This document shows, piece by piece, positions 43,808-49,700 of a stretch of 51,974 nucleotides of DNA (its first letter is position 1; the number at the start of each line of letters is the position of its first letter). A program made the translations under genes and the position numbers. The stretch comes from a bacterium (lineage in GTDB: Bacteria; Patescibacteriota; Minisyncoccia; Phycocordibacterales; SBAW01): the NCBI GenBank assembly GCA_005239955.1, contig SBAW01000024.1, positions 1 to 51,974 of the forward strand, in the 5' to 3' direction. The notes beneath the pieces were generated by a model that saw nothing but the letters and a program-made list of their open reading frames with translations, was not told the origin of the DNA and ran no database searches.

Positions 43808-44389
43808 CTAGAGAGAGGATGCGTTGAGGGAATCATTAATCCGCGCAATCGCACTTTGCCGGATGGGCGAAACAGCCTCGAGAAGTTCGCGCGAGAGAGG
43901 CCGGTCGAGGTAGGACGCCAGCGGCTCTTCTCTTCCCAGGTAGCCAAGATGAAAGAGGATGCGAAGTACAATGACGCACTCCATGTTTTTCAATTCCTCG
44001 GTGGTCAAAGATGAGGTGGTTAAAAAAGAAAGTGAGTCAGAAAGGGTGGTAAAGAGAAGCGGCGCCGCCTCTTCTCCTTGAAGAAGCCGTCGGAGAAGAC
44101 GCGCCGCATTGCCGACAACCGCAAGGGTCGCCGGCGAGAGATTCTCCATACTTCTCTCGCTCTCCACTCCGACCAGTCGCCACTGCGCCTTCCCTCGAAC
44201 GAGTGAGACCATAACAAAGGTGCGCAGAAGGAGATGGTAGCGTAATTTTGATTTTTCGAGCCGTACACCACGCGCAAGTGCGCGGAGGCGTCCATGAGAC
44301 TCGGTAAAAAGATCAATGAGACGATTTGCTTCGCCGACCGATGTGCTTCCCAAAATAAAGGCCCGCGTTGTATAGAGATGCTCCGCCAT
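43808..44389 (-). CDS. recO: DNA repair protein RecO
   Basis: YTTRAFILGSTSVGEANRLIDLFTESHGRLRALARGVRLEKSKLRYHLL. Start set at MAEHL. Confidence 0.85.
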   Translation of the reverse strand: MAEHLYTTRAFILGSTSVGEANRLIDLFTESHGRLRALARGVRLEKSKLRYHLLLRTFVMVSLVRGKAQWRLVGVESERSMENLSPATLAVVGNAARLLRRLLQGEEAAPLLFTTLSDSLSFLTTSSLTTEELKNMECVIVLRILFHLGYLGREEPLASYLDRPLSRELLEAVSPIRQSAIARINDSLNASSL

Positions 44390-44391
44390 AC

Positions 44392-47300
44392 CTATTTTGA
44401 AATCGCGATCGAGACGCTCCCGCAAGAGAGCTCAATACTCTCTTCCCCCTTCCCTTCCGTAAGACTCCGGAGGCCTGCTGCCTTCTGGAGTTCATCTTTG
44501 TGGGCAAGTGCGAGAGCTGCGCCATCTCCTTCAACAAAAAGAGCGGGGCGATCGGTTGGGGTGAGTCCGGCGCGTTTACGCAGATCTTGAATCGCGCGAA
44601 TAAGTTCACGGAGGTCTCCTTCCTCCCGGAGCTTTGGAGTAAGGACCACATCGAGGAGGATTTCGTCCTTCTGTTTCTCATCTATACGAACCTCCTGGAC
44701 ATTCACCTCGTCCTTAAGGAGCATTCGATAGGCATCTTTAAGCGCGTATCGCAGCGTCAGCCGGGAGAGCGGTTGTCGGATTTTGATGCCAGCCGCACTC
44801 CTCGCCTCAAGCGCAAGCGATACGGCGTGTCGTGTTTTTTGCATCTCTTCAAGAACAACCGTATCCGGCGTTGACGCCTTTGGCCATGACGAGAGATGCA
44901 CACTTTCTTCCTTTCCTCCAACTCCTCGGTAAACCATTTCTGCAATAAAGGGGATAAGTGGCGCAGCAAGAACGGCAACGGTCTCAAGAACCTCTCGTTG
45001 TGTGGCAAGCGCGAGCGTTTTGTCGCGCGCATCATCTCCTTTGGTGCGCTCTCTCGAGCGACGCACGTACCAGGTGGAATAATCCTCAACAAAGGCACGC
45101 AGCGTCTTAACGGCGCGCGGCATATCGTAGGCATCAAATGCTGCGGTCAGGGTATTCGTCGTTTCATCAAGACGCGCAAAAATCCATCGATCAAGGACGT
45201 GGGTGCTCGTGCGCCCCAAAACCGTCGCGTCCTGTTCTTGTCGGTACAAATCGAAGAATTTATACGAGTTCCAGAGGATGCCAATAGTGCGATTGTGCGC
45301 CTCCCGCACGTCATCGTCACGAAAATTAAGGTCCTCTGCCTGCATAACGACACTCCCCAATAGATAGAGGCGCAGCGCATCAGCGCCGAATCGGTCCATC
45401 AACACAAGCGGATCGGTATAATTTCCTTTCGACTTACTCATTTTTGAACCATCCTGCGAAAGGATGGTGCCGGTCGAGACAACGGTTTTAAATGCGCGTG
45501 CATTGAAAAGAAGCACTCCCATGGCGTGCATGTAGTAAAACCAGGTGCGTGTTTGCGCGATGTACTCCGCAATAAAATCACCCGGGAATCGTTTACGCTT
45601 CTTTAGAAGTCCGCCGCGCGGATCAAAGTGTGGGAGAGGATGCCCAACATAATGCTCCGCCGCAAAAGGCATCGAGCCCGACTCAACCCAGCAGTCAACG
45701 ACTTCCGCAATGCGCGTCAGTGGCTCGCCCCCCTCATCTTCAAGCGGCAGTTCATCAATGTAGGGGCGATGGAGATCGAGGTCAAATTCTTCATTGTGTG
45801 GGTAGGGCGTAAATGACAGGACGCGGTATTCAGCGTTTTGAAGATATGCTTCTTGCTCGTGATAGGGTTTCTCTTTTGGTGCGAAGACGCTACAGGACTG
45901 ACACGCCGCAACCTGCTCGAGAATAAACCCGGGTTCCGCATGGGTCACCATAAGAATTTTTTTGTTGGCATACGTCGCATCAACCGCAAAGAGGAACGCT
46001 CCCATGCGACGACGAAGATCATTCATGGTCTCTGCGGCATCAATCTTTTTATGGAGGCGTTCAAAATAATTTGAGAAAAGCGCAATCCAATCGGCGCGTG
46101 ACTGCCCTGAATAGGCCCCAAACCCGACTTCTCGCAGTCGCGGATCAACGACAAGCGCGCTCTCGGAGAGTCCAAGCGTATGCCGAACCAATTCAGCAGT
46201 TTCTTTGGCACGTGGAAGCGGAGAGGAAATGATGAGATCAATCTTCTCGTCGCGAAGTGTAAGCGCTGACGCGCGCACTTGTTCCTTTCCTTTCGTGGTG
46301 AGGTGGTTGTCTGCCATCGTGCCGGAGTCAACGAGCGCTTCGACATTACTTTTCGCCTCTCCGTGTCGCATGACGATATAACGATTGCCGGAGGGCTTCA
46401 CGAGGGAGAGGAATTCCGCAACTGAACCGATAACCCGCAACGCGCCGTTTTTTGTTTTCCAAATAGGAAGGGGTGAGGCCCAGTAGCGGTTCCGAGAGAT
46501 CGTCCAGTCAGGCGCACTCTCCACAATATTCTTAAAACGCCCTTGTTTAAGATGCGCCGGCACCCACGTTACCTTCTCGTTTTCTGACAGCATGGCTCCT
46601 TTCACTTTTTGAATATTAAGAAACCACGATGTGACTGCGTTATAGATAAGGGGGGTCCCACAACGGTAGCAGTGAGGATAAGAGTGAGTATTCATTTCGC
46701 GCGCAAAAAGAAGCCCGCGCTTCTCAAGATCGGCAACAATGTCCTTTTCTACCTTCTTGATGTACTGCCCGCGCAAAAATGTCGGAGCGTTCTCGTTGTA
46801 ATTCGCTCCTGCGTCAAGGAGCTGTACCATCGGAAGATTTTCTTTCTGCCCGAGCGCAAAGTCATCTTCGCCGTACATAACGGCGGTATGGACAATCCCC
46901 GTTCCCTCTTCGGTTGAAACAAAATCCGCATCATATACTTTGTACGATGTGGCGGAGCGAAGCACGGGTATGTCAAAAAGTGGCTCGTATTCTATACCAA
47001 CCAAGTCTTTCCCAAGAACTTTTTTTTGAACCTCCATCCCTGCGGGAGTTAAGGCTTCGGCAGCAATGACCGTGCCTCTCCCGTCTATTCCAACTGCATA
47101 GCTCATATCAGATTTAACTGCCAGAGCGACGTTACCGGGAAGCGTCCACGGTGTCGTCGTCCACGCAAGCAGATAGGTATTTTCCGGAAGTCCGTGCTTT
47201 GAAGGATTGTTTGCTTTAAACTTCACCGTCACCGCTTCTTCGGTGAGGTCTTTGTAGGTGTGGTCCATCGCGATTTCCGCTTTCGCTAAGGGTGTCTCGC

Positions 47301-47850
47301 AGTGCGGGCAGTACATGAGGACCTTCCGTCCTTCATAGAGAAGCCCCTTCGTGTAGAGTTCTTTGAGGGCCCACCACACGCTCTCGATGTAGGAGGAGTC
47401 CATCGTTTTGTAGGAGTTTTCAAAATCCACAAAGCGGCCCACCCGATCGACATATTGCTTCCAGTCATCAACATACTGAAGAACCGAGAGACGGGCCTCA
47501 CGATTAAAGGTACCCACGCCAATCTTTTCGATATCTTTTTTTGTTTTGAGTCCTAACTTTTTTTCAATGAGGCTTTCAATGGGGAGCCCATGGCAGTCCC
47601 ACCCCCAGCGACGCGGTACACGATACCCCTGCATTGTTTTGTAGCGGGGCACCACATCTTTAATAATGAACGAAAGAAGATTGCCGACATGGGGGAGCCC
47701 TGTGGCGAACGGCGGCCCGTCGTAGAAGACAAATTCGCCTTTGGGCGCATCCTTTTTGAGTGACTTCTCGAAGATGTGATGTTTTTTCCAAAAGGAAACA
47801 ATGTCTTCTTCCCGCTTCGCCGTCTCTGATTTCTGTTGATTTTCGGCCAT
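44392..47850 (-). CDS. ileS: Isoleucyl-tRNA synthetase with inserted histidine-phosphatase domain
   Basis: GLPHVGNLLSFIIKDVVPRY and KMSKSKGNY; inserted RYIVMRHGEAKSN...SSPLPRAKETAELV...ILMVTHAEPG at about 45815-46390. Start set at MAENQ. Confidence 0.95.
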   Translation of the reverse strand: MAENQQKSETAKREEDIVSFWKKHHIFEKSLKKDAPKGEFVFYDGPPFATGLPHVGNLLSFIIKDVVPRYKTMQGYRVPRRWGWDCHGLPIESLIEKKLGLKTKKDIEKIGVGTFNREARLSVLQYVDDWKQYVDRVGRFVDFENSYKTMDSSYIESVWWALKELYTKGLLYEGRKVLMYCPHCETPLAKAEIAMDHTYKDLTEEAVTVKFKANNPSKHGLPENTYLLAWTTTPWTLPGNVALAVKSDMSYAVGIDGRGTVIAAEALTPAGMEVQKKVLGKDLVGIEYEPLFDIPVLRSATSYKVYDADFVSTEEGTGIVHTAVMYGEDDFALGQKENLPMVQLLDAGANYNENAPTFLRGQYIKKVEKDIVADLEKRGLLFAREMNTHSYPHCYRCGTPLIYNAVTSWFLNIQKVKGAMLSENEKVTWVPAHLKQGRFKNIVESAPDWTISRNRYWASPLPIWKTKNGALRVIGSVAEFLSLVKPSGNRYIVMRHGEAKSNVEALVDSGTMADNHLTTKGKEQVRASALTLRDEKIDLIISSPLPRAKETAELVRHTLGLSESALVVDPRLREVGFGAYSGQSRADWIALFSNYFERLHKKIDAAETMNDLRRRMGAFLFAVDATYANKKILMVTHAEPGFILEQVAACQSCSVFAPKEKPYHEQEAYLQNAEYRVLSFTPYPHNEEFDLDLHRPYIDELPLEDEGGEPLTRIAEVVDCWVESGSMPFAAEHYVGHPLPHFDPRGGLLKKRKRFPGDFIAEYIAQTRTWFYYMHAMGVLLFNARAFKTVVSTGTILSQDGSKMSKSKGNYTDPLVLMDRFGADALRLYLLGSVVMQAEDLNFRDDDVREAHNRTIGILWNSYKFFDLYRQEQDATVLGRTSTHVLDRWIFARLDETTNTLTAAFDAYDMPRAVKTLRAFVEDYSTWYVRRSRERTKGDDARDKTLALATQREVLETVAVLAAPLIPFIAEMVYRGVGGKEESVHLSSWPKASTPDTVVLEEMQKTRHAVSLALEARSAAGIKIRQPLSRLTLRYALKDAYRMLLKDEVNVQEVRIDEKQKDEILLDVVLTPKLREEGDLRELIRAIQDLRKRAGLTPTDRPALFVEGDGAALALAHKDELQKAAGLRSLTEGKGEESIELSCGSVSIAISK

Positions 47851-48032: not shown

Positions 48033-49700
48033 TTACATCCGCTCCAAGGCCTTGATACCAAGAAGCTCGAGGCCGTTTCGCATCGTGATACGAAAGGCGT
48101 CGGTGAGCGCAAGTTTATACGGACCAAATTCGGTATCCTCAATAATCCGCTCCTCGGCATAAAAGCGATTAAACGCCGCCGCAAGGAGCGTGAGATATGA
48201 CACGACGTGGTGCGGTTCAAATTCCGCCGCAGCTCGCTCCACCACTTCGGGGAATCGGTACAAAAGTCGCTCCAACTCGCCGGGCTCTTTTGGTTTTGCG
48301 GTTGAGGCGCGCATACTCGCTTCTCTTGCTTTGCGTAGAATTGAAACACTGCGAGTGTGCGCGTACTGAAGGTAGGGCCCTGAGTCGCCTTCAAGTGAGA
48401 GCGATTTTTCGTGATCAAACACAATATCCTTTCCCGTTCCCTGCTTGAGGACCGCGTACTTAATTGCGGCGACACCAATCGCGTCGGCAATGTCATCTGC
48501 TCCGGGAGCGTTGCGCTCTTTCATTTTAAGAAGCGCCACCGCTTTCAGTTCATCAAGAAGATCTTCACTACGCACAATATTTCCAGTTCGCGACGACATT
48601 TTTCCAGAGGTTAAACGCAGCATGCCGTTACTTATCTGCACAATCTTTCCGGCGAGCTTCGCGTCAACCAACTCGAGTGCTTTTTTTACCACTTTGAAAT
48701 ACTCCGCCTGCTCCGTCCCCGTAACCGTAATCGACTGATCAAAAGGAAACGCTTTCTTTTTTAAGTGTGCGAGCCCCAGATCTTTTGCCTCGTAGGTAGG
48801 CAACTCTTCTTTGGTAAGGAAGACGCGCGTATGAAGGCCATAGCGCTCACCGCGAAACACCACCGCATCGTCGCTTTTCTCAAAAACGCCTTTGTTGAGC
48901 CATTCTAAGACAATTGCTTTACCGACAGGACCCGTCTCACTTTCAAAGAAGTAAAAATCAAAAGTGGTTCCCAGGCGCTTATACATCACTTCAAATTGAT
49001 CGAGTGAAAGTTTGCGCCCCTTCGTGTAGAGTTCGTTTACGTTCGAATCGCTCTTGGTATATACCGCACGATTAATCGCGACAATTTCTTCCTTTGCCTG
49101 ACTGCTTTCTTCATACGCGGCGGCTCCTTCTGCATAGCCCCGCCCCAGATCCCCTGCGGTCTCTGCTTTTCCTAATTTTTTGATCCCCCAAATCGCCTTC
49201 GCAACATGGAGCCCCACATCGCCTTGGTAGTTGGCGCGCGCCACTTTCGCACCGGAGTGTTCAATAAGGCGCGACAGCGACTCTCCAAGCGCGTTTGGAA
49301 CAAGGTGGCCGATATGAAATTCTTTAAACGGATTGGGGTCGGTATACTCAACCATTATCCTTTCGCCTTTGCGTGACGTGTTGCTTCCCCACTTTTCATC
49401 CGCGGAAACAATTTCGCGTATACTTTTGTGAAGAAAATCGGGTGAAAGCGTAATGTTAATAAACCCCGGTCCCGCAACTTCTGTTTTTGCGATGAATCCT
49501 TTTTCATCGCGGATAAGTGAGGCGATCCGCTCCGCAAGCGCGCGAGGTTGCTCGCCGGCTTGTTTGCCGACCATGAGCGCAACATTGGTCGCATAATCCC
49601 CAAAGGAGAGTTCCGGATGTTCAAGGTGAATGTCGGGCACCGGAAGAGTGAGGCTCTGGAGTGCCTTGGTAACGATGTTCGTAATGTGTTGCTTGATCAT
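48033..49700 (-). CDS. argS: Arginyl-tRNA synthetase
   Basis: VEYTDPNPFKEFHIGHLVPNALGESLSRLIEHSGAKVARANYQGDVGLHVAK. Confidence 0.96.
   Translation of the reverse strand: MIKQHITNIVTKALQSLTLPVPDIHLEHPELSFGDYATNVALMVGKQAGEQPRALAERIASLIRDEKGFIAKTEVAGPGFINITLSPDFLHKSIREIVSADEKWGSNTSRKGERIMVEYTDPNPFKEFHIGHLVPNALGESLSRLIEHSGAKVARANYQGDVGLHVAKAIWGIKKLGKAETAGDLGRGYAEGAAAYEESSQAKEEIVAINRAVYTKSDSNVNELYTKGRKLSLDQFEVMYKRLGTTFDFYFFESETGPVGKAIVLEWLNKGVFEKSDDAVVFRGERYGLHTRVFLTKEELPTYEAKDLGLAHLKKKAFPFDQSITVTGTEQAEYFKVVKKALELVDAKLAGKIVQISNGMLRLTSGKMSSRTGNIVRSEDLLDELKAVALLKMKERNAPGADDIADAIGVAAIKYAVLKQGTGKDIVFDHEKSLSLEGDSGPYLQYAHTRSVSILRKAREASMRASTAKPKEPGELERLLYRFPEVVERAAAEFEPHHVVSYLTLLAAAFNRFYAEERIIEDTEFGPYKLALTDAFRITMRNGLELLGIKALERM

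Follow-up and report, generated by a model that had tools for sequence, protein, structure and literature searches.

A histidine phosphatase inserted in the type 2 isoleucyl-tRNA synthetase of Patescibacteria

Aminoacyl-tRNA synthetases are essential and, as a rule, conservative enzymes. Patescibacteria are a large group of bacteria with tiny, host-dependent cells. In a contig from one of them (51,974 nt, analysed in full and here called the window), an initial annotation made from the sequence placed a histidine phosphatase inside isoleucyl-tRNA synthetase (IleRS), in a continuous frame, and proposed a bifunctional enzyme. What kind of phosphatase is this, how did it come to reside in a synthetase, and what could it do there?

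The synthetase and its insert

The ileS gene (44392..47850, minus strand) encodes a type 2 IleRS of 1152 aa plus stop with an inserted histidine phosphatase. The frame runs uninterrupted from 47850 to 44392, and Pfam finds tRNA-synt_1, His_Phos_1, the rest of the synthetase and Anticodon_1 in this single protein (1153-aa query). Together with the motifs described below, this confirms the architecture that was first proposed. The NCBIfam ileS model (TIGR00392) scores 797.5 bits against a cut-off of 621.4, and an AlphaFold 2 (AF2) model of the whole protein reaches a pLDDT of 91.1 and a pTM of 0.85. The best fold matches of the body are the type 2 IleRS structures 8c9d/8c8v, yeast IleRS (8wnd) and 1ile (TMt 0.91). 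Like the enzymes of Priestia megaterium (IleRS2), T. thermophilus (1ile) and yeast, it has the whole body, the KMSKS loop, and editing and anticodon domains, but those type 2 enzymes lack the phosphatase, and the HVGN signature belongs to the window's IleRS. The protein is the only IleRS-type PF00133 protein found in its genome, the remaining ones resembling ValRS, LeuRS and MetRS.

The anticodon-binding domain (PF08264, 3.1e-27) is encoded at 44764..45192 and the KMSKS loop (residues 803–807, read from the sequence) at 45430..45444, both on the minus strand. Both catalytic signatures had initially been called intact, which holds for KMSKS but not for the HIGH-type motif (47680..47691, minus strand; residues 54–57, likewise read from the sequence). 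This motif is altered to HVGN, with Asn for the fourth His, while close relatives of the body have HSGS, HAGS or HYGS. Mupirocin hyper-resistance in IleRS2 has been linked to GXHH, an altered motif different from HVGN (PMC10485003).

The insert spans 45778..46401 on the minus strand (residues ~484–691, ~208 aa), with boundaries set against IleRS that are insert-less or differently filled; the earlier span of 45815–46390 was roughly right, if slightly narrow. It is flanked by IGSVAEFLSL and DLHRPYID, and the corresponding VGSxxEL–DLHRPxxD stretch holds a short linker in insert-less relatives. In type 2 IleRS, this loop connects the WGxPxPxW motif with DxWxESG. The insert sits past the CP1 editing domain and within the catalytic core, which corrects a placement in the editing region. 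The PF00300 (His_Phos_1) match covers residues 493–640 (7.1e-29), and all named motifs are found: RHGEAKSN, SSPLPRAKETAELV, REVGFGAYSGQ and VTHAEP. The RHG motif contains the catalytic Arg495-His496 pair (46363..46368, minus strand), whose His is the predicted phospho-acceptor; the pair is invariant in all 86 inserts compared and in two alignments.

Modelled alone, the insert reaches a pLDDT of 94.7 and a pTM of 0.91 (AF2). Its fold matches in the PDB are headed by PspA, followed by GpgP, TIGAR and PhoE, the top ones all being branch-1 members, while its best profile matches are PhoE (1.7e-30) and PspA (2.4e-28); the nearest characterised relatives are the small-molecule phosphatases PhoE, PspA and CobC. 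PhoE (1h2e/1ebb) and the metal-independent phosphoserine phosphatase PspA (4ij5) share the fold, RHG, second His, Arg and Glu with the insert, but they are stand-alone enzymes with ~20% identity to it. With RHG, a second catalytic His, an Arg, an acidic residue and the fold, the insert has the defining features of branch 1 of the histidine phosphatase superfamily. Profiles and predicted structure show it as a complete PhoE/PspA-like branch-1 phosphatase, predicted to fold as an independent module within a type 2 IleRS.

None of the NCBIfam equivalog cut-offs is reached by the insert. The nearest curated model is dPGM_arch, and the window's genome has no PF00300 match besides the insert, which together could suggest the cell's phosphoglycerate mutase, or another enzyme of central metabolism, fused by chance. 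We consider this highly improbable: the dPGM_arch score of 78 bits lies far under the cut-off of 225, and both profile and fold point to PhoE/PspA. Neither enolase nor a PF01676 mutase was found in this genome (92% complete), and lower glycolysis is thus apparently absent, which makes a mutase role more unlikely still.

Distribution and repeated gain

To measure prevalence, IleRS was searched first, with the insert not used as a query, and 143 of 147 genomes of the order matched. Two of these 143 genes are broken at contig ends; of the 141 that can be scored, ~135 have an insert-sized frame or carry the insert on a broken contig (44 were inspected residue by residue, the others judged by frame size and PF00300 matches). 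Carriers include Adlerbacteria, Zambryskibacteria, Taylorbacteria, Nomurabacteria, Kaiserbacteria, Vogelbacteria, Yonathbacteria, Lloydbacteria and Campbellbacteria, and named MAGs from other projects share the architecture. Chance is ruled out, and so is an assembly artefact, which had been named as an outcome that would overturn the observation: ~135 independent genomes share the architecture, and the MAGs from other projects agree.

Six genomes of the order (G021, G028, G053, G054, G072, G138) have an IleRS that lacks the insert, in short frames of 847–980 aa. G028 combines an insert-less IleRS with zero PF00300 matches and G054 with a single, very weak one (7.8e-4), and the activity is thus dispensable in some lineages. 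Beyond the order, IleRS relatives in other genomes and viral contigs were gathered with an IleRS alignment. The insert is common within the window's class and patchy across the phylum; it is absent from the sampled IleRS of Berkelbacteria, Microgenomates, DPANN archaea and spirochaetes, and from all 25 IleRS loci on viral contigs.

The fusion partners are restricted. Among the PF00300 matches listed for 74 genomes of the order, every frame above 500 aa either has the size of an IleRS, is a fragment of one, or is a ValRS (G011, G034), most of the large ones being attributed to IleRS from their location and length rather than read individually; the remaining matches lie in frames of 91–391 aa. 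Outside the order, three frames of 437–462 aa have PF00300. The one that was read (L253 in G370, 437 aa) joins His_Phos to a DedA-like membrane protein.

Within IleRS, three insertion sites occur: that of the window's IleRS; a second after DLHxDxVDD, used by the second copies in double-insert IleRS (~1450 aa) and by L176; and a third that follows the KMSKS region and precedes the anticodon-binding helices (L107, L088). In ValRS, the phosphatase lies either before DTWFSSG (L069, L077, L080, L090, L091, L245–L247, L252) or after it (L063, L070). One IleRS of 1572 aa (L088 in G432) has three histidine phosphatase domains, each at another site. The insert tree contains several clades, and as single-gene trees of ~190 columns have weakly supported deep nodes, the differing insertion sites are the stronger evidence for repeated gain. 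As read from these sequences, phosphatases joined IleRS (three sites) or ValRS (two sites) repeatedly, in unrelated clades.

Other synthetases are also enlarged. In the order, LeuRS (L258, L260–L266) is often ~930–1340 aa long vs 800–830 aa, with inserts that comprise NUDIX in seven of the eight scanned, Ser_hydrolase in L261 and L263, a Ham1-like domain in L263 and DUF559 in L265. One ValRS (L076:3-3257 in G420) contains HAD, Ser_hydrolase and His_Phos in one protein. The ValRS of the window's own genome (L133, G000:C9) has ~130 aa extra between WGIAIPAWF and DTFDTWFSSG, a segment that by eye is ASCH-like, with no Pfam support.

In the window, argS (48033..49700, minus strand) lies directly upstream of ileS and a recO-like gene (43808..44425, minus strand; an open reading frame named by sequence resemblance) downstream. 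The argS-ileS-recO order recurs at L254 and L257. In three genomes of the window's class (G534, G517 and G461, with L254, L255 and L257), whose IleRS is insert-less, a related phosphatase is encoded by a gene of its own on the same strand, directly between argS and ileS.

Active-site conservation and separate histories

All 86 first IleRS inserts (a few of which share one genome) retain the six catalytic residues (R, H, S, R, E, H), as do eight of nine further copies, seven of nine ValRS copies and 21 of 23 stand-alone phosphatase genes. Loss of the catalytic His among homologs had been set as the other refuting outcome, and its invariance favours the original observation. An alignment of 42 inserts, from the window and the named genomes, has just eight invariant columns (R17, H18, G19, S65, R69, E96, R137 and H159), with the six catalytic residues all among them. 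For the L039/L043 pair, dN and dS are 0.12 and 0.84 in the insert, and 0.07 and 0.79 in the body. Purifying selection acts on the insert.

Loop insertions are common in large enzymes. The insert might accordingly be taken for a purely structural or neutral addition without enzymatic function, especially with the domain shortened to ~170 aa and a middle segment gone in L141, L152 and L178. Even these shortened domains retain RHG, the second His and the Glu, the active site is invariant over several clades, and decay looks different, as in the ValRS L077, where the six residues read RHSRDS. We regard a neutral insert as very improbable.

Insert and core do not share one history. In the body tree, a single family, or even a single genus, can be spread over different IleRS types. 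For two proteins of the same genus (L010 and L016), insert windows have 45–62% identity and the C-terminal part mostly 45–60%, whereas the catalytic core, its N-terminal end and two conserved windows excepted, has mostly 33–48%. L006 and the window's IleRS share 53–83% in N-side core windows (after the first window) but just 28–55% in the insert, and the L006 insert is about as close, or closer, to that of its congener L005. Conversely, L025 and L043 have bodies with 70% (N half) and 56% (C half) identity and inserts with 25%. Cores have thus been swapped around resident phosphatases, and different phosphatases have come to occupy one site; the direction assigned to each exchange is provisional.

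The separate evolution of insert and core would fit a generalist house-cleaning phosphatase, active but unconnected with aminoacylation, for which the permissive loops of large class Ia synthetases serve as a chassis in streamlined genomes. The NUDIX, Ham1-like and Ser_hydrolase domains in LeuRS of the same order, the ValRS with HAD, Ser_hydrolase and His_Phos, and the lack of another PF00300 match in the window's genome speak for it too. The choice of partner is non-random, however, with the phosphatase in IleRS and ValRS and NUDIX the commonest insert in sampled LeuRS; moreover, stand-alone His_Phos genes are also kept in many genomes of the order, and stand-alone relatives adjoin ileS. We treat such a chassis as a serious minority possibility.

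A possible phosphatase step at tRNA charging

The idea of a bifunctional enzyme draws strong support from the invariant active site, the purifying selection, the confidently predicted fold and the recurrent fusion, which would make the window's protein a synthetase with a second, putative phosphatase activity. In our preferred reading, held at even odds, this is an active phosphatase tied to the work of the synthetase. It would act as an ordinary two-step phosphomonoesterase, in which His496 takes the phosphate from the substrate, the Glu of the LRE motif serves as acid/base, and water then frees the phosphate. With less certainty, keeping the phosphatase on IleRS may benefit the cell because branched-chain aminoacylation produces the substrate, holds it close by or is inhibited by it. 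Candidate substrates would be small molecules or nucleotides that carry a phosphate, or phosphorylated synthetase or tRNA. None of the substrates suggested at first (aminoacyl-AMP, pyrophosphate-type or nucleotide phosphates) has so far found support, nor has a part in editing. A soluble pyrophosphatase of the normal kind is encoded in the genome, which makes a pyrophosphate-rescue role unlikely, and the insert is located outside CP1.

Some histidine phosphatases act on phosphoproteins. The insert might protect the synthetase, removing phosphate from the enzyme (e.g. from the KMSKS loop) or the 3′ end of the tRNA and so undoing kinase- or pyrophosphokinase-type toxins aimed at charging. Its position in the catalytic core and the use of KMSKS by both IleRS and ValRS are consistent with this, but its closest structural and profile matches are small-molecule phosphatases, and we consider self-protection improbable.

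Domain-augmented synthetases are already known, and an IleRS with a phosphatase belongs among them. The nearest demonstrated case that we found is the MetRS of Mycoplasma penetrans, whose appended aminotransferase is active and supplies methionine (PMC7694997). It is likewise a bifunctional synthetase of a reduced bacterium, but with an N-terminal appendage, another synthetase, other chemistry and a single lineage. The NCBIfam model ileS_w_GNAT (NF040702) also describes an IleRS with an extra enzyme domain, in that case an acetyltransferase, and the window's IleRS scores 303 on it, under the cut-off of 1999. The bifunctional RNase H/acid phosphatase (NF005567) likewise joins a branch-1 phosphatase to a nucleic-acid enzyme, but as a tandem fusion with another partner rather than an insertion; the insert scores 76 bits, under the cut-off of 326. 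A search of the open-access full-text literature (subscription papers and preprints being outside its scope) returned no report of a phosphatase–IleRS fusion, and standard annotation overlooks it, labelling the protein plain ileS.

More broadly, and only tentatively, branched-chain aminoacylation in Patescibacteria may be coupled to a phosphatase step that has escaped notice and for which fusions with IleRS and ValRS (and, by analogy, NUDIX–LeuRS) were selected repeatedly, with the synthetase as a local site of repair or detoxification. A complete phosphatase that is kept in an essential synthetase throughout an order, was gained several times and was retained through exchange of the core points to a step near tRNA charging.
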